From IMG/VR virus record IMGVR_UViG_3300025674_000451, positions 1 to 22,161 of that record: 22,161 nucleotides of DNA. The stretch is one strand, 5' to 3'. Below are positions 491 to 15,072 of this stretch, piece after piece. The DNA comes from a virus. The notes beneath the pieces were generated by a model, which searched no databases, was not told where the DNA came from, and saw only the letters and a program-made list of their open reading frames with translations. Both the position numbers and the translations under genes were made by a program. How positions within the stretch are numbered: position 1 is the stretch's first letter; each line of letters begins with the position of its first letter.

Positions 491-521
491 GTATCTAATT
501 AAACAGTGTTCAATTAGATAC
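491..521. repeat. 31-bp near-perfect palindrome, operator- or origin-like
   Basis: The left arm GTATCTAATT (491-500) is the exact reverse complement of AATTAGATAC (512-521). The intervening AAACAGTGTTC continues the dyad: pairs 502-510, 503-509, 504-508 and 505-507 all match around a central G at 506. Only the 501/511 pair mismatches, so 14 of 15 positions pair. This is far more symmetry than expected by chance. It lies midway in the divergent region and suits a dimeric regulator, an initiator site or a cruciform. No binding protein can be named. Confidence 0.75.
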
Positions 522-1104: not shown

Positions 1105-1462
1105 GATATTGCGTAATCGCAAGTTCAGCCCAGTAGAGAAGTTATTAGACCTCTACGAAGAACTTGAAGAAGATGGTGAGTATATCAGGGAGCAGATAGA
1201 CGCAAACCCAGAACTCGGTACTATAATCAACCCAGTAGACAATCAAAAGCTTCGTGAGCGTGTCCTCAGTAGCGTTATGAAGTGCAAACAGACAGAAGAT
1301 GGCTTACGTATTAAATTGGCTCAATTAGACGCTGCTAATCCAAACAGAGATAGTGGCCCAGTACAGGGTATTATTATGAACCACGTAGAGCGTACTTTGC
1401 CAGATGGTAGGATCATAATTGAGAAGGTAGCACAAATTGCCACAGATAAGAACCAACCCTAA
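1085..1462 (+). CDS. Putative small terminase subunit (TerS-like)
   Basis: This 125-aa frame starts at TTG 1085. GAAGG at 1071-1075 lies nine bases upstream, and no in-frame ATG occurs near the 5' end. The N-terminal 90 residues are helical and acidic (FSPVEKLLDLYEELEEDG), and the C-terminus looks beta-hairpin-like (VERTLPDGRIIIEKVAQI). Small terminase subunits recognise phage DNA and load the large subunit. They are poorly conserved, so the call rests on size, helical character and position directly before TerL, with the TerL start nested in its last codons (26-bp overlap). I see no diagnostic motif. A different accessory packaging protein is the main alternative. Confidence 0.5.
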   Translation: MNKSVDEILRNRKFSPVEKLLDLYEELEEDGEYIREQIDANPELGTIINPVDNQKLRERVLSSVMKCKQTEDGLRIKLAQLDAANPNRDSGPVQGIIMNHVERTLPDGRIIIEKVAQIATDKNQP

Positions 1463-3050
1463 TTGGGACGACAGTAATTTTGTTGACTACAGTAAGTTGT
1501 CAACTAAGCAGCGTAAGGAGATGGTGGAAGATCCTGACCACGAATTTAATTATGCGAACACTTACGACCCTAATGATTATGATGAGATAGTTGAGAAGTA
1601 TGACAACAAAGATGCGGTGTTACCTCAGAACGCAGTAGATGTGTGGGGTGGTTTCGTACCGACATTTTATCAGTATGAGTGGTATAAGCACTTTACCCAA
1701 GTAGAAGAAGGTGGTGGCTTTAGGCGTAATATTGAGGGCACTTGTGTAATTCATAGGCGTGGTGGTAAGACTACTGGTACTATTCCTTGTGTATTATTGC
1801 CGAGGTCTTTAAATGACCCAGGTTTATATTTGCATATATTCCCTACTTTAACTCAGGGCAGGGGTGCTTTGTGGACTGGTATGGGTAAGATCACAAGAGA
1901 TATGGCAACTTGTGCAATCCCTTACCTAGAGCTGATTCCAAAAATGTATTGGGTTAAGCGTAACAATCACGAAATGACATTAGAGTTATCTAATGGCAGT
2001 ATTTATAGGTTAGGTGGAGCGAGGGGTGCAGATGGTACTGCTAATCATTGGCGTGGTTTCAACCCAATGGGTGTGATCGCTGATGAGTATGGTGAGTGGA
2101 ATGATGATGTGGTAAGTGAGATATTCGGGCCAGTGTTAGCTCAGAATGGTGGCTTTATATTTCGTATTGGTACTCCTAAGGGCGAGAACCAGTTTTTCAG
2201 GGATTATATGTACGACTTAGAGAGTGAGAATGAATGTAACCGAGCGTGGTTATTAAGCATTGATAAGACTTATTACAATGATGGTAGCCCGATTATCACG
2301 AGGGAGTATATTGAGAAGGAATTAGCGAGGGGCGTTGACCCAGAGATTATTCAGCAGGAATATTATTGTTCTTTTAAGGCGGCTGCAAGTGGAGCTTGGT
2401 ATAAACACTCTATGAGCCGTATTGATGAGGAAGGTCGTATCCGCAAGTTATCTTACAACCCAAATCATAGGATAGAGGTGGACTGGGATTTAGGTGGTAG
2501 TGATGCTTTTGTAGCTGGTATCCGTCAGTCGTATGATGATTACCATAGGTATATTGATTGCATTAAGATGGAGAGCGTCCCTATTGGTGTGGTGATGGAC
2601 GCAGTATTAGCTAAATACCCTGGTGTGCATACTCATTATTTTCCCCATGATGGCAAGATGCGAATTGATATGGTAGATCATTTTCAAAGTCGTATTGAGG
2701 CATTGCGTAAGCGAGGTATCAATAATATCGTACAAGTCCCTCGTACAAAGAGTTTGGGAGATGGCGTACAAGTAACGAAAGAATATTTAGCTAAGTGTGT
2801 GTTTGATGTTGAAAATTGTAGTGAGTTAATAAGTAATTTGCGTAACTACAAGAAGAAGTTTAACAAGACGACTAATAGTTACATAGATGCGGCTGTGCAT
2901 GATGAACATTCTCATGGTGCAGACATGGTTCGTACTGGAGCGACAGCGTATAAGTTGTGTATGTTTGCGATTGATAATGGTTTAGGTGGTGGTAGAATGT
3001 TGCGTAAAAAGCGGTTAAGTCGGATAGCCAAATTTAATTATGGAGTATAA
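1437..3050 (+). CDS. terL: Terminase large subunit (DNA packaging ATPase/nuclease)
   Basis: This 537-aa protein pumps DNA into proheads and cuts concatemers. The N-terminal ATPase domain has a Walker A-like HRRGGKTT at about residues 106-113 and a Walker B-like VIADEYGEW at about 213-221, with the catalytic Glu after Asp. The C-terminal RNase H-like nuclease domain shows Asp residues in DWDLGGSD (about 349-356), HYFPHDGK (D405) and HDEHSHGADMVR (D489, D496), the expected acidic cluster. The start is TTG 1437, preceded nine bases upstream by GAAGG (1423-1427). The next in-frame ATG (1521) abuts an AAGGAG with no spacing and is less suitable. It overlaps the upstream gene by 26 bp and the next gene by 11 bp. 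Length is normal for podoviral TerL. Confidence 0.93.
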   Translation: MPQIRTNPNWDDSNFVDYSKLSTKQRKEMVEDPDHEFNYANTYDPNDYDEIVEKYDNKDAVLPQNAVDVWGGFVPTFYQYEWYKHFTQVEEGGGFRRNIEGTCVIHRRGGKTTGTIPCVLLPRSLNDPGLYLHIFPTLTQGRGALWTGMGKITRDMATCAIPYLELIPKMYWVKRNNHEMTLELSNGSIYRLGGARGADGTANHWRGFNPMGVIADEYGEWNDDVVSEIFGPVLAQNGGFIFRIGTPKGENQFFRDYMYDLESENECNRAWLLSIDKTYYNDGSPIITREYIEKELARGVDPEIIQQEYYCSFKAAASGAWYKHSMSRIDEEGRIRKLSYNPNHRIEVDWDLGGSDAFVAGIRQSYDDYHRYIDCIKMESVPIGVVMDAVLAKYPGVHTHYFPHDGKMRIDMVDHFQSRIEALRKRGINNIVQVPRTKSLGDGVQVTKEYLAKCVFDVENCSELISNLRNYKKKFNKTTNSYIDAAVHDEHSHGADMVRTGATAYKLCMFAIDNGLGGGRMLRKKRLSRIAKFNYGV

Positions 3051-7682: not shown

Positions 7683-10007
7683 ATGGCTGAACAAGGTAGC
7701 GTTACCACCAGTTTCGTAGCAGGTAAAACACCGCAAAGAATGAAGGGTCGTTACGATCACCCTTTGTATGTTAGTGGTGCAGAAGAATTATTAAATGTAA
7801 TCGCTACCCCAGGCGGTTCATTAATTCGCAGACCAGGTTGTGAAACAATTATAGACACAGGTACGATAGCTTACAGTAGCCGTATGATACCTTTTCACGA
7901 CCCTAATAACAATGGTGCATTAATATTTTTTGAGCCAGATAACAATGTAAAAGTTTATCAAAATGATGTGCAAGTTTTAAATGTCGCTCACAATATTCCA
8001 AATGGTCTTGTACCAATAGATGAGATGGATTATGTGCAGGTACGTGATTACATATTTTTCACGCATAAAACCTTTGCACCAAAGATGATCGTTAAAGAAC
8101 GAATAGAAACTTTAGAAGGCAATGGTACTCTAACTGAATTTGATTACCCTTATGTAGTAGTTGATACAACTGATATAGAAGTTAGAGTAGATGATGTTCT
8201 AAAAACATTGACAACTGATTATACGATTACAACTTTTGATAAAGTTGATGGTCAATTTGAAGGTATTAGAATTACTTTTGTAACAGCTCCTACAAATGGT
8301 GCTGTAGTAGAGATTAAGCGCAAATGGAGTTTTCATAATTACCCAAACTTAGATGGCCCCTGGGAAAGAGAGAACACTGATAACACATTAAAAGTTGCAG
8401 TACATAGTGCAGCTAGTGGTAGTGCTGACGAGGGTTATTACGGTACAGCAATTTTAAAAGGTGTAACCAGAAAGGGTGGTGCATTAAAAGCTTGGCTAAA
8501 CGATTCATGGGTTGGTCGCCAGATGCGAGTTTGGAGTGATGAGTCAAATGAAGAACAATATGCAACGATCACATTTGACAGTGTAGATACCTCTAAAACT
8601 AAGTACAATGTTACTATTTCAGAAATTTATAGGATAGCAGATTTATCTACAACAGTAGCAACATACGCACCACGTACAAAGCGTTGGGCATTAGCTGCTT
8701 GGTATGAGGGACAGTATCCAGAAGTGGTTGGTGTACATCAAGATAGCTTATGGTTTGGTCGTGGTAATGATAGATGGAAGACAATATCAGGAAGTTTATT
8801 TACATTTAGTCCAAGTCTACCTGACGATCAAGGCGTTTATCAAATAACAGCAGATTCAGGAATTTCAATTACAGGAAGCGATCCTGTATCTACTAACCCT
8901 TCATGGTTATTTGGTGATAAAGTTTTGTTTTCTGCTACTAACGCAGCACAAATGATTATTCAAGGCGGATCAACTTTCGGTGCTATCGCTCCTAGCACCG
9001 TTTCTATTTTGAAGCAAAGTACAATAGGTGCTGCAAAGATTAAACCAGTTGCAAGAAATGATTTATATTTTGTTGATAACTATAGGCAAAACATATATAA
9101 ATTTGAATATAAATTTCAAAGATCATCATTTGTCGCTGACAAAATAAACCAATATGACGATTTACTTTTTGAAAAGTACATTAGAAAAATGTGTTTAATC
9201 AAACAGCCTTTTCACATGCTTTGGTGTTTAATGGAAGATTTTAGTTTGGTGTGCTTAACCATCAATGAGACTGATAATGTTTTTGCACCTACTGTATTTA
9301 CTGGGTTGCAAGCAATAGATATTACAGTTATAGAGCAATCAGATGGGACAGAAGATATTTATATTTTAACGAACGAGGGTAAATTAGCTAAGTTTGGTGA
9401 TTTCATCACAGCAGAAGGCGAGCGTAATTTAAGAGTGAATATTGGTAGCGAGCCTCTTTTAATACTACCAAGTGGTTCTTATTACTTGAGAAACAATACA
9501 CTTGATTCTAAAAGAGAGTTCTTAACAGATTTTGCAACAAGTTACAACGGTGGCACATCTATTGATTTAAACACAATTTTAAGCACTCAGGTTGTAGTTG
9601 ATGATAGTAATTATGAAAACTGGAAATATAGCTCTACAAGTAAAACGGTAACACCTACCAATAAATATGAAGTTGGTACACCTTTTAGCGTAGGGATTAC
9701 AACCAATCAGATTAATACAGTACAAGGTAGTTTAACGGATATAAACCGCAGTAAGAAATTAAAGAAAGCTTATTTCAATTTAGATAAAACATTGAACTTT
9801 AAAGTTAAAGAAGTAGATAATAGTGATTATGAAGAAGTTAAGATTCGTGAGGGGCTAAGTGATTTATCTGAACCACCAGCAACTTACACAGGGTTAAAGA
9901 AGTTCAACTTACATGGTAATAAGAAAACATCAGTACAGTTACAATTTACTCAAGATGAGTCAGTACCATTTACGTTAAACTCTATAGTCTATGAGTACGA
10001 AATATAG
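7683..10007 (+). CDS. Tail tubular protein B (gp12-like nozzle)
   Basis: This 774-aa protein should form the tail nozzle. Length is close to T7 gp12 (about 790 aa). The N-terminus has the family pattern: SVTTSFVAGKTPQR, then YDHPLYVSGAEELLN and GGSLIRRPGCETI (about 40-58), the region where this family describes mapping of defaulted tail contacts. The centre is beta-rich, with DYIFFTHKTFAPKMIV (about 121-136), YPEVVGVHQDSLWFGR (about 347-362) and PSLPDDQGVYQITAD. The C-terminal part is beta propeller-like and ends FTLNSIVYEYEI. The start follows the tubular A stop by two bases. The 3' end overlaps the next gene by 17 bp. It would stand below tubular A and hold the fibres. Confidence 0.92.
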   Translation: MAEQGSVTTSFVAGKTPQRMKGRYDHPLYVSGAEELLNVIATPGGSLIRRPGCETIIDTGTIAYSSRMIPFHDPNNNGALIFFEPDNNVKVYQNDVQVLNVAHNIPNGLVPIDEMDYVQVRDYIFFTHKTFAPKMIVKERIETLEGNGTLTEFDYPYVVVDTTDIEVRVDDVLKTLTTDYTITTFDKVDGQFEGIRITFVTAPTNGAVVEIKRKWSFHNYPNLDGPWERENTDNTLKVAVHSAASGSADEGYYGTAILKGVTRKGGALKAWLNDSWVGRQMRVWSDESNEEQYATITFDSVDTSKTKYNVTISEIYRIADLSTTVATYAPRTKRWALAAWYEGQYPEVVGVHQDSLWFGRGNDRWKTISGSLFTFSPSLPDDQGVYQITADSGISITGSDPVSTNPSWLFGDKVLFSATNAAQMIIQGGSTFGAIAPSTVSILKQSTIGAAKIKPVARNDLYFVDNYRQNIYKFEYKFQRSSFVADKINQYDDLLFEKYIRKMCLIKQPFHMLWCLMEDFSLVCLTINETDNVFAPTVFTGLQAIDITVIEQSDGTEDIYILTNEGKLAKFGDFITAEGERNLRVNIGSEPLLILPSGSYYLRNNTLDSKREFLTDFATSYNGGTSIDLNTILSTQVVVDDSNYENWKYSSTSKTVTPTNKYEVGTPFSVGITTNQINTVQGSLTDINRSKKLKKAYFNLDKTLNFKVKEVDNSDYEEVKIREGLSDLSEPPATYTGLKKFNLHGNKKTSVQLQFTQDESVPFTLNSIVYEYEI

Positions 10008-10800: not shown

Positions 10801-12972
10801 ATGGCAGGAAGACCAGGGACAGATATATTTCAAGCGATCGGGCAAGTAGCAGGTGGTGTAGCAAGACAAGAACTATCTGACTTGCAGCAGTTACGCAGGC
10901 AAGAAGAAGCTTTAACTGCTATTGAATTATCAAATCAATTTGATACTGATAACAATAACTGGTTAATAGATAAAGACGAAAACTATACTTATGATGGTAA
11001 CTTAACGGCTGATGCTGAAAGATATTTTAATGAGCGTGAAAATGCTTTAATAAACGGCTTACAAAGTAAGAATGTGCAAAGGCAAATGAAAGGTGCATTA
11101 TCAAGAAGCAAAAAAAATTTTTTAAACAAAGCACAGGCACTAGAAGCAACAAAGCATTTAGATTATCAAAAGACTTTATGGTCAACTGGTGAACAAAATG
11201 CAGCTTCGCAGATACAAGCAAACAAGGGTGATCTAAGTATATTGCAAGAGCAAATAGCAATATTTGAAACTAATAAAGAAGATTACACAGATCCAGTTAG
11301 ACAAAAATTATTACCAGCAACAAAAGGTGATTTATCTAAATTAACTTTAGATAGTCGAATGAACGATATTGAGCTACGTATCGCAAAGGGTGAGCTAAGT
11401 CCAGAAGATGCTTTAACCGACATAGAAATATATGAACAATCAATACTTAGACAAGCTAGTGTGTATGGTTTAGATGCAGATGATGTTCGTATTTATGGTG
11501 ATAAGATTGCAACATTTAAAAAGTCATTACTGACTAAAGGTGCTAAAGCTTACAAAAACTCTATTAACACTCAAGTAGAGTCTTTTGAGAATTTAATAAA
11601 TAATGGTCAAGAGTCGCCATATAATCCAAATTATCTAGCTTTAAAACAACAACAAATTGCACTTGACCCAGAAAAAGCAGCAGAAAAAAGTAAAGACTAT
11701 GCTGTTCTTGTTGGTAATTATAACGCTACTACATTAGCTAGTAATGGTGATATAGAAGAATTAACTCAATATCAAAATGAATTACAGCAACAGTACAGAA
11801 GTTCTAAGGGCAAAGTAAGTCCAGTAGAAGAAGATATTTTATTTACTAACTACACAGTAGCGCAAGAAAAATTAAGAGAAGCAAATAAATTAATAAGAAC
11901 CAATCAAGGTGAGCTTTTTAAAGATAGTGAAACCGCAAAGAGTGTATTAAGACAAGAGGGGGTTGTAGGGTATTTTAACTGGGCAGCAGCTAAATCGAAT
12001 GAGTATGCACCTCTGCACAACTTTAGACCTCTTACACCAAACATGATTGAAGATATTAGCTTGCAAATTCAATCAACAGCAGCATCAGGTGATTTTGCTT
12101 TACTTAGACAAACAATGACAAGCCTAGTAGATACTTTTGATGAACCAATAATGGCTTACGGTAATGTTAGTGGTGCTAAGATTTTAAAAGATAATTTATT
12201 GTATCACTTTGCACAAAAAGCAAGTTCTAACAAGGCTGACAAAGACCCTTTTAGTTTAGATGAAAAGTACACAATGTTGTTGCCATACAGCAAAGAATTA
12301 ACTCCTATTGAATTTGACCAATCAATTAGGTATCTATCAGCAGAAACACCTTTACTTGATAAAGACGTGCAAGAAAAAAATACTATTCAAGAAGGTATCG
12401 CAAAAGAAATTATCCCATTTTTACAAGCAAGAAACGGTAGAAGTGATGTATTGTTTCCACCAGAACTTGCCTTGCAACCTTTATTAACAGAAATAGCTTA
12501 TGGTCATTATGAGCTTAGCAGAAAAAGAAATGCTAAGGATAGTGCGAAATGGGCTATTGAAACATTTTTAAAACGAGATACAAAAGTAGTTAATACTGGA
12601 ATGGGTGAGACAGTTGTATCAAAAGATATCAGTAGAGATGTTTTATTGGTTTTACAAAGTAGGCAGGGTACAGGTAATTTTGCATTACAAGAATTAACAA
12701 AGAAAAATCCAGATGTAGAGTTTGCAGACGTTTATCAAATTGAGGGCTATGACATAAGCGGTAAGGTATTTAAAAAAGCAATAGAAAACAATTCACAATT
12801 AGTAGATGTAGGTAGCGATAAATATCAGCTTTACGTAGGTTTTCAAGATCAAAGACTTCCTTTATTAGAGAAAGGTACAAAGACACCAGTCATTTTTTCT
12901 AAAGAAGAAATTGAAAAATATAAAAGAGAAGTAAGGTCAAAACAAACTTTTGGTGCTGGTGGAATGTTGTAA
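10801..12972 (+). CDS. Internal virion protein, gp15-like (723 aa)
   Basis: This is a large, almost wholly helical, charged and Gln-rich protein with no signal peptide or membrane span. After a short opening (MAGRPGTDIFQAIGQVAGGV) come long helical repeats rich in Gln, Lys, Glu and Ala (about 30-400), then a more mixed C-terminal half ending in a basic tail with GAGGML. T7 gp15 (747 aa) is the helical core protein that is ejected with gp16 to build the periplasmic DNA conduit. Length, composition and position after the gp14-like gene match. I see no enzyme motif. It starts one base after the previous stop, with a weak GAGGT site about eleven bases upstream, and ends three bases before the next gene. 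Confidence 0.75.
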   Translation: MAGRPGTDIFQAIGQVAGGVARQELSDLQQLRRQEEALTAIELSNQFDTDNNNWLIDKDENYTYDGNLTADAERYFNERENALINGLQSKNVQRQMKGALSRSKKNFLNKAQALEATKHLDYQKTLWSTGEQNAASQIQANKGDLSILQEQIAIFETNKEDYTDPVRQKLLPATKGDLSKLTLDSRMNDIELRIAKGELSPEDALTDIEIYEQSILRQASVYGLDADDVRIYGDKIATFKKSLLTKGAKAYKNSINTQVESFENLINNGQESPYNPNYLALKQQQIALDPEKAAEKSKDYAVLVGNYNATTLASNGDIEELTQYQNELQQQYRSSKGKVSPVEEDILFTNYTVAQEKLREANKLIRTNQGELFKDSETAKSVLRQEGVVGYFNWAAAKSNEYAPLHNFRPLTPNMIEDISLQIQSTAASGDFALLRQTMTSLVDTFDEPIMAYGNVSGAKILKDNLLYHFAQKASSNKADKDPFSLDEKYTMLLPYSKELTPIEFDQSIRYLSAETPLLDKDVQEKNTIQEGIAKEIIPFLQARNGRSDVLFPPELALQPLLTEIAYGHYELSRKRNAKDSAKWAIETFLKRDTKVVNTGMGETVVSKDISRDVLLVLQSRQGTGNFALQELTKKNPDVEFADVYQIEGYDISGKVFKKAIENNSQLVDVGSDKYQLYVGFQDQRLPLLEKGTKTPVIFSKEEIEKYKREVRSKQTFGAGGML

Positions 12973-12975
12973 AAG

Positions 12976-15072
12976 ATGAAAAACCCTTTACTAGATGTAA
13001 CAACTTATACAGATAGAGAGATACAAACTCGTGGTGATTTATTAGACTTACCGCCATCAATGGAACTTGGTGCAATACATGGCCGAGCTGCTGATGAGTC
13101 AATTAATACATCTATTGTAAACTTTGCTAAAAAACAAGTAGCAAAGGTTACTGAGCAAAAGATTAGCGTAGAAGAAGCTAATAAACAATATGGTATTAAA
13201 GGTTTAGTAGAATTTGATGAACCACAATATCCAAGCGTTGCACAAAGGGTACAAAAAAACAAAGTACAACAAGCACAAAGACAAGCAATCTTACAACAAG
13301 ATTCTTTTGATAATAATGTAGGCTCAGTTATTGGAATGGGTGCAGTAGGCATAGGTACTGGTCTTGCAATGGATCCGACTGTATTACTAGCATTTGCAAC
13401 ACCAGTAGGAGTTGCAGCAGGTGGTCGTTTATTAACATCTATATCTGTGCCACAAAAAATGAAAAATTTTGCAGGTGCAGTACAAGCAATAACAAAGACT
13501 AAGGGGATACAAAATGCTATTCGTTTAGCAGATAAAGCAACAACACTAAAAACTACTTTTGGTACTGGTGCATTAAGAACAGGGTTAGCAGTAGGAGCAG
13601 AGTTTGCGGTTACTGAACCATTTGCATATTGGAACGCACAAGAGAATGGCTATGACTATGATGTATTAATGAACACAGGTTTTGCACTAGGTTTAACAGG
13701 TGCAGCAGCAGGTATCGGTGGTTATTTATTTAAAAATGCTGTTAAGGCAGATTTAAAAAGTTTTAAAGGTATAACAGAATTTACATCTTCATTTTCAAAA
13801 GCAGCAGTAGCCGCAAAGAGTGCAACGCCATTAATAGGTTATCGTGTAGCAAGCACTTTAGAAATGGTTGATAATGCAGTAGCAAAAAACATATTATCAG
13901 AAAATATTTATGCACAATTAATGGCAAAAGCAACTGACGACTTAGTTACAGGTCGACCGTTAGAAACAGATTTTATTCTTGCAGCAATGAGAGTTGACCA
14001 AACAGGTAGAGTTACCAAAAGGTTTTATGACGAATTAATATCTGGTGAGTTAGATAAATTTTTAACAGATAGTCAAAAACAATATTTCTTAAATAGCCGT
14101 TTTATAGATGAAGACCTTGTGGAAACCACAAACTTTAAAAAGTTTATTACTCAAGATCTAGGTGCTTTAGACAATTACGCTAGAAATGCAGATGATGTTA
14201 CATTAGCTAGGCAATTAAATTTAGAGGGAGCAACTCCTAAAAAAATCAATGCACGTATAAGCAGTGTGGCAAAATTACAAAACAGTGTTCAAAAAGAATT
14301 AGCGCAAGTTTTAGACAACATTAAATTACTTGAAACACAAATAGGAGTAGGTACTGCAAAAGCAAAAAGACTTGCTAAACAAAATTTAGAAAAACTTGTT
14401 ACTAAAAGAGATGAGCTTTATAAGCAAGTAAACGATTTTGATTTAGAGTTACAAAAGACACAAACCTTACAGCGACAAGTTTTAGTAGATGAGCTTGAGT
14501 TATATTTCGATCAAGCAAAACTTAAGACTGTAAAAGAATTAGATTATAATGATTTTAAAAATGAAGTTTTAGAAATTGCTAATAGATTAAAAAACAAAAA
14601 ATATCCAAGCATAGATAAGTTTGGTACTTTAACAGAAGACACCAAAGTAGACATAGCAAGATTGTTTTATTTAATGAAACCAGAAGATGTTTATGGTTTA
14701 TCAATAAAAGATTTAGCTAAAAACATTGATGAGTTAGATACATTTGATGCTTTTCAAAAACATAACTTTAGATCACAAGTTGAAGAAATGCCTTATGAGC
14801 AAGCTGAAAGTATTTTAAAAGAAAATATTGCAGATGTTGATACACCAGTTGCAAGAAAACTAGATGAGATTCTATCAAAACCAGAAGCACAAAAAGCTCC
14901 AGAGTTAAAAATAGAAGATTTAGATAGAGAAGTTGAAGATTTAAAATTGCAGGTATCACCAGAAAGTTTGAAAGATTTTGAAGCAGTATCAAAACAGATT
15001 GATGATGAAGTTATAAACCAAGAAAAAGTATTAGATGGTTTAATTCAATGTAGATTAAAGGGAGCTTTATAA
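12976..15072 (+). CDS. Large internal virion protein, first half of a gp16-like pair
   Basis: This 698-aa protein has a charged N-terminal region (1-110, including ISVEEANKQYGIKGL, a pattern I associate with podoviral internal virion proteins). Two Gly/Ala-rich hydrophobic segments follow, at about 116-153 and 236-252, which could insert in a membrane. Next come a mixed region, a strong coiled coil at about 428-515, and an acidic C-terminus. No transglycosylase (SLT) motif such as a catalytic Glu before GLMQ is seen, unlike the N-terminus of T7 gp16. The gene ends in a TAATG overlap with the next gene. Together they total 1,551 aa, close to or larger than a single gp16-type protein. It probably travels into the host with the DNA. 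Confidence 0.68.
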   Translation: MKNPLLDVTTYTDREIQTRGDLLDLPPSMELGAIHGRAADESINTSIVNFAKKQVAKVTEQKISVEEANKQYGIKGLVEFDEPQYPSVAQRVQKNKVQQAQRQAILQQDSFDNNVGSVIGMGAVGIGTGLAMDPTVLLAFATPVGVAAGGRLLTSISVPQKMKNFAGAVQAITKTKGIQNAIRLADKATTLKTTFGTGALRTGLAVGAEFAVTEPFAYWNAQENGYDYDVLMNTGFALGLTGAAAGIGGYLFKNAVKADLKSFKGITEFTSSFSKAAVAAKSATPLIGYRVASTLEMVDNAVAKNILSENIYAQLMAKATDDLVTGRPLETDFILAAMRVDQTGRVTKRFYDELISGELDKFLTDSQKQYFLNSRFIDEDLVETTNFKKFITQDLGALDNYARNADDVTLARQLNLEGATPKKINARISSVAKLQNSVQKELAQVLDNIKLLETQIGVGTAKAKRLAKQNLEKLVTKRDELYKQVNDFDLELQKTQTLQRQVLVDELELYFDQAKLKTVKELDYNDFKNEVLEIANRLKNKKYPSIDKFGTLTEDTKVDIARLFYLMKPEDVYGLSIKDLAKNIDELDTFDAFQKHNFRSQVEEMPYEQAESILKENIADVDTPVARKLDEILSKPEAQKAPELKIEDLDREVEDLKLQVSPESLKDFEAVSKQIDDEVINQEKVLDGLIQCRLKGAL
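15057..15064 (+). promoter_or_regulatory. Ribosome binding site of the second gp16-like gene
   Basis: AAAGGGAG at 15057-15064 lies seven bases before ATG 15072. It supports real independent initiation at the TAATG junction over a sequencing error splitting one gene. Confidence 0.65.

Follow-up and report, generated by a model that had tools for sequence, protein, structure and literature searches.

What does a long, nearly perfect inverted repeat do in the spacer between the divergent gene blocks of an HTVC010P-type podovirus? The stretch of DNA analysed here (hereinafter the window) is an entire record of 22,161 bases, in which a 31-bp dyad at 491–521 lies between a leftward ORF (80–343) and rightward genes starting at 835, a divergent position already ascribed to it in an initial annotation. 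That leftward ORF (minus strand, 87 aa), the first complete one, and the start of another are all that the window holds on this side, the early region being mostly outside the record. The 87-aa protein has no relatives in the viral contig collection, no family match and a poor AlphaFold model (pLDDT 56). The rightward block, on the plus strand, opens with a small charged protein of 89 aa (835–1104; 40–43% identity in the relative L004), followed by a small protein directly before TerL (1085–1462; 53% identity in L004), which by its position is a candidate terminase small subunit, and by the terminase large subunit TerL itself (1437–3050; PHROG 2, E-value 8e-19). It continues with genes for a head-tail connector, a scaffold/protease-like protein, the major head protein and tail tube proteins. 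The same order of TerL, connector, capsid and tail tubes is found in the Pelagibacter phages HTVC010P and HTVC034P (NC_020481, MW273922), in which a divergent junction likewise adjoins the terminase side but TerL is only ~27% identical to that of the window. The window's TerL is at most ~35% identical to any phage record, and a TerL search of the genome contig collection gave no matches. The spacer likewise matched no sequence in the phage collection, HTVC010P and HTVC034P included, and in the titles and abstracts of the literature on control regions of HTVC010P-type phages none describes it.

A strong dyad for its spacer

Recomputation recovered the dyad exactly as the initial annotation had described it, and the dyad is thus a real feature: its arms (491–505 and 507–521) pair in 14 of 15 positions around the central G506, giving GTATCTAATTAAACA-G-TGTTCAATTAGATAC (full sequence GTATCTAATTAAACAGTGTTCAATTAGATAC, with no strand assigned), and the sole mismatch is A501/C511. 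With a match scored as +1 and a mismatch as -2, it reaches 12 and is the top-scoring dyad of the window, the runner-up having a score of 10. To this extent it is unlike anything else in the window, as had been claimed, but for a 22-kb sequence to include a dyad this strong is nothing rare. Among dinucleotide shuffles, 155 of 20,000 attained a score of at least 12 when the spacer was shuffled (344–834; 0.8%) and 20 of 400 did so when the entire window was (5%); shuffling the window in 500-base blocks gave 27 of 400 (7%). A high frequency in shuffled sequence had been named beforehand as a sign that the dyad is unremarkable; judged by the shuffles, the dyad is unusual for the spacer and not for the whole window. 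Furthermore, related AT-rich phage DNA totalling 482 kb contained 14 dyads scoring at least 12, a count that falls once near-duplicate loci are removed, such that dyads of comparable strength occur at ~0.3–0.6 per 22 kb in the AT-rich related loci. The dyad is therefore mildly unusual, being notable for its own AT-rich spacer and not extraordinary for a 22-kb window.

These numbers bear directly on the reading that the dyad is a product of chance or a lineage-specific relic, i.e., that an AT-rich spacer happened to yield a functionless dyad. The whole-window shuffles and the density of comparable dyads in related loci speak for it, as does the absence of the dyad from a more distant relative (see below); against it stand the 0.8% frequency in its own spacer and its position amid several conserved elements. 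On balance, we consider this reading rather unlikely. Two-fold symmetry beyond chance, as would be demanded of an operator, is likewise seen locally, whereas the whole window offers it only at the 5–7% level. No further copies of the dyad are present in the rest of the 22,161-base record, and this single-copy state counts against a protein-bound operator, since operators often come in sets.

Conservation in relatives

Using TerL, the small gene before TerL and the capsid protein as queries, we found the same divergent spacer in only two other IMG/VR contigs. The first (L002/L003; 17.7 kb) is ~99% identical to the window and has the dyad unchanged. As neutral divergence between the two, measured at 4-fold sites, is only ~1% (16 of 1632 differ), this identity says little; we accordingly rejected conservation between the window and L003 as a sign of constraint, because kinship alone predicts 120 unchanged bases. 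The differences between the two cluster in patches (578–760, 8498–8737, 11978–12097 and 13058–13297), of which the first two show 8–11 differences per 120 bases against the ~1% at 4-fold sites, a distribution that suggests recombination; the first patch includes a local hot spot (578–755), with 20 differences at 581–755, which is possibly a product of recombination.

The second contig (G001, also cited by its locus L004) is near-complete at 32.3 kb and is the only independent relative, with 75% identity in TerL and 86% in the capsid protein. The dyad is absent from G001, where the best match has eight mismatches and was judged to be a chance resemblance and not a counterpart. A search of the viral contig collection with the exact dyad arms found them in no contig besides the near-identical relative. 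The check on relatives that the initial annotation had proposed thus gives an identical dyad in L003, which is too close to be informative, and none in the G001 spacer. Loss of the dyad from a genome that keeps the same divergent gene pair would have spoken against its importance; G001 lacks the dyad, yet its first leftward gene also differs from that of the window, so this objection carries only half its force. By these comparisons the dyad appears to be lineage-specific, shared only with a near-identical virus.

Conserved spacer elements and a candidate leftward promoter

The spacers of the window and G001 have three elements in common, in the same order, the patterns of which were partly picked after seeing both sequences, so that their single-site probabilities are not to be taken at face value. 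The first is a palindrome of the pattern AAGGG-N4-CCCTAG (AAGGGCATGCCCTAG; 534–548, without strand; L004 5026–5040), which has a single occurrence in each of the two, both lying within the divergent spacer. The second is a spaced dyad, AACATAA-N7-TTATCTT (556–576, without strand), which has a perfect AAGATAA-N7-TTATCTT counterpart at L004 5140–5160. The stretch around it (549–578) matches L004 5167–5138 in inverted orientation with 26 of 30 bases identical (87%), a match equalled in none of 300 shuffles; being itself a spaced dyad, its orientation may not matter for function. The third is an 88-bp GC palindrome block on the plus strand (TTTTTAGACCCCC-TAGGGGGG ... TCTATTGG..CCT..AATTTTTT; 698–785; L003 ~241–330; L004 5260–5347), which is the best conserved non-coding part of the spacer and aligns better than all 300 shuffles. 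Across the group, the region upstream of the TerS-like gene has kept a GC palindrome, AGACCCCC(C)TAGGGGGG, and, ~45–55 bp after it, a AATTTTTT tract. A similar layout of palindrome and tract was also observed in L063, L064 and L066–L070, GC-rich and otherwise unrelated contigs, and in L068 its position is precisely between an HNH gene on one side and TerS-TerL on the other. In HK97 the corresponding region has a cos site with a TerS-binding A-tract (PMC11331095), and we regard the block at 698–785 as a candidate packaging (cos-like) signal. These conserved neighbors may prove more worthy of study than the dyad.

A consensus scan listed a sigma-70-like promoter candidate on the minus strand at 528–557, with a -35 hexamer TTGACT (557–552), an 18-nt spacer and a -10 hexamer GATATT (533–528), matching at 9 of 12 positions. 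This site is weak when taken alone, given that the region has four promoter-like sites against 2.8 ± 1.8 in shuffles. However, the same scan finds a leftward promoter-like site in L004 (TAGATA-17-TACAAT; 5049–5021), and the AAGGG-N4-CCCTAG palindrome fills the space between -35 and -10 in both genomes, with its phase equal to within 1 bp. It is this shared arrangement of palindrome and promoter that argues for a putative leftward promoter, as either match alone is equalled by shuffles. The combination of the promoter-spacer pattern with TAGATAC was also encountered in six further contigs, which have no TerL, TerS or portal homology and were dismissed as chance occurrences. With a start 6–8 bases past the -10 hexamer, transcription from the candidate promoter would begin at ~520–522, i.e., at the right edge of the dyad, and the dyad would accordingly span ~+1 to +31. 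An operator is expected to adjoin its promoter, and the predicted start at ~521 would place the dyad there, albeit on the strength of a promoter match no commoner than in shuffles.

Genome layout of the near-complete relative

In G001 the divergent region is located at ~12.3–12.8 kb of the contig, with a layout as in the window. Its leftward/early genes encode RuvC, a DnaB-like helicase, a Sak4-like AAA protein and others, whereas the rightward genes include those for the TerS-like protein and TerL; a convergent junction follows at ~26.7 kb, and the tail genes that come next extend the late block over the contig ends. One such end (L150:19261–19998) translates to FFFKQKTAYEI, which looks like sequencing-adapter read-through, making this contig end probably an artefact. 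The early region is closed by two small proteins (L150:13154–13387 and L150:12664–12858), one of which, of 77 aa, weakly resembles MarR-like winged-helix proteins (E-value 8e-4, below the curated cut-off); the other resembles a ribbon-helix-helix protein by eye, with no family match. Going by these resemblances, both are candidate regulators. G001 shows no phage RNA polymerase gene, and no integrase or CI/Cro-type repressor was recognized among the ORFs examined.

This gene content bears on the proposal in the initial annotation that the spacer is a divergent control region with the operator of a lytic switch. The control region itself is upheld as one between early and late blocks, with the same layout, the shared short elements and the skew minimum described below in G001; the switch is not. 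The divergent position and the operator-like symmetry would suit an operator deciding between lysis and lysogeny, but the leftward genes make up a replication/early block, and since near-complete G001 shows no integrase or repressor among the ORFs examined, we regard such a switch as highly improbable.

The cumulative GC skew of G001 (L150 and L151) is lowest at the divergent region and highest close to the convergent junction (~26.7 kb), as a strand bias of the genes or else a bidirectional origin would produce. The dyad might be part of a replication origin, as an initiator-binding site or unwinding element, and the skew minimum, the AT-richness of the spacer (28% GC versus 36%) and the DnaB-like helicase of G001 would be in keeping with this. 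The skew is, however, confounded by gene direction, which flips at the same place; moreover, a single dyad with no iterons, absent from G001, speaks against an origin, and we assign this explanation a low probability.

The dyad as an RNA or DNA structure

Besides binding a protein as DNA, the dyad could act as RNA, forming a 5′-terminal stem-loop of the leftward early mRNA that would serve in protection from 5′-end-dependent decay, in processing or as a protein-binding site. In the leftward (minus-strand) RNA a G-U pair takes the place of the A501/C511 mismatch, so that the stem closes over 14 bp with a loop of 3 nt (-15.3 kcal/mol, z -5.0), whereas the rightward RNA retains an internal mismatch and folds at -10.6 kcal/mol. 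These predicted energies mildly favor a role in the leftward transcript, and two further points agree with it: the candidate promoter would begin the RNA at the base of the stem, and the symmetry exceeds in length and perfection what most operators require. The ompA-type 5′-terminal stem-loops of bacterial mRNAs slow decay, and the likeness lies in a stable stem that is predicted to stand at the start of a candidate transcript; the difference is that the dyad is known from sequence alone, the 5′ end of the transcript being placed by the promoter match. On the other side, about one mismatch in every three would by chance become a wobble pair on one of the strands, the only homologue of the dyad (L003) is identical, such that covariation cannot show, and L004 has no such hairpin at the corresponding position. 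An Rfam search of the dyad returned no match, by which we rejected a known RNA family. We view an RNA role as somewhat unlikely, yet the foremost of the rivals.

An intrinsic terminator was considered and discarded: the stem is AT-rich, and there is no T-run after the dyad and no terminator-like site on either strand in 344–840. Nor does anything point specifically to a cruciform, which had also been suggested, as the single-stranded DNA folds reach only -6.7 and -8.2 kcal/mol.

A putative operator of the leftward early promoter

The dyad is probably a regulatory site, and of the specific roles we tentatively prefer that of a cis-acting control site (operator) through which a lytic HTVC010P-type podovirus would regulate its leftward early promoter, with a probability of roughly 38%. 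Under this proposal, a dimeric, phage-encoded DNA-binding protein, the gene for which would lie outside the record, would bind the 31-bp dyad as DNA, at the start site and over the initial three turns of the leftward unit, and would lower or time early transcription. We infer use of the promoter, binding and the direction of the effect from a divergent spacer with a multi-element layout that is kept in the same order in a 75% relative, from the palindrome set between the -35 and -10 hexamers of the leftward promoter candidate in both genomes, and from the locally unusual symmetry of the dyad. The MarR-like small protein of G001 provides a candidate binder, and the lack of a T-run or terminator on either strand is consistent with the same role. 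Weighing against an operator are the absence of the dyad from G001, a promoter match no better than those in shuffles and a regulator gene that is not visible in the window.

Staphylococcal phage phi11 offers a comparable arrangement: its operators lie in a divergent control region between divergently oriented repressor genes (PMC3991615). The likeness is that of a dyad between divergent transcription units near promoter-like hexamers. Unlike phi11, there is here a single long dyad with no repressor pair and no homologous copy set, and lysogeny genes are not seen in the window's relative. The dyad is thus best described as a familiar kind of feature, seemingly lineage-specific and with a putative functional role. 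A bolder version, in which HTVC010P-type podoviruses would have a new early-promoter architecture combining a palindrome in the promoter spacer, a lineage-variable dyad at the start, small phage regulators and a packaging signal in the same spacer, strikes us as quite unlikely.

Taken alone, one dyad in one near-identical contig pair changes little. If the dyad and its conserved neighbors do constitute an early control region, they would provide a compact target for the timing of early and late genes in this type of lytic podovirus, the near-complete relative showing no RNA polymerase gene.
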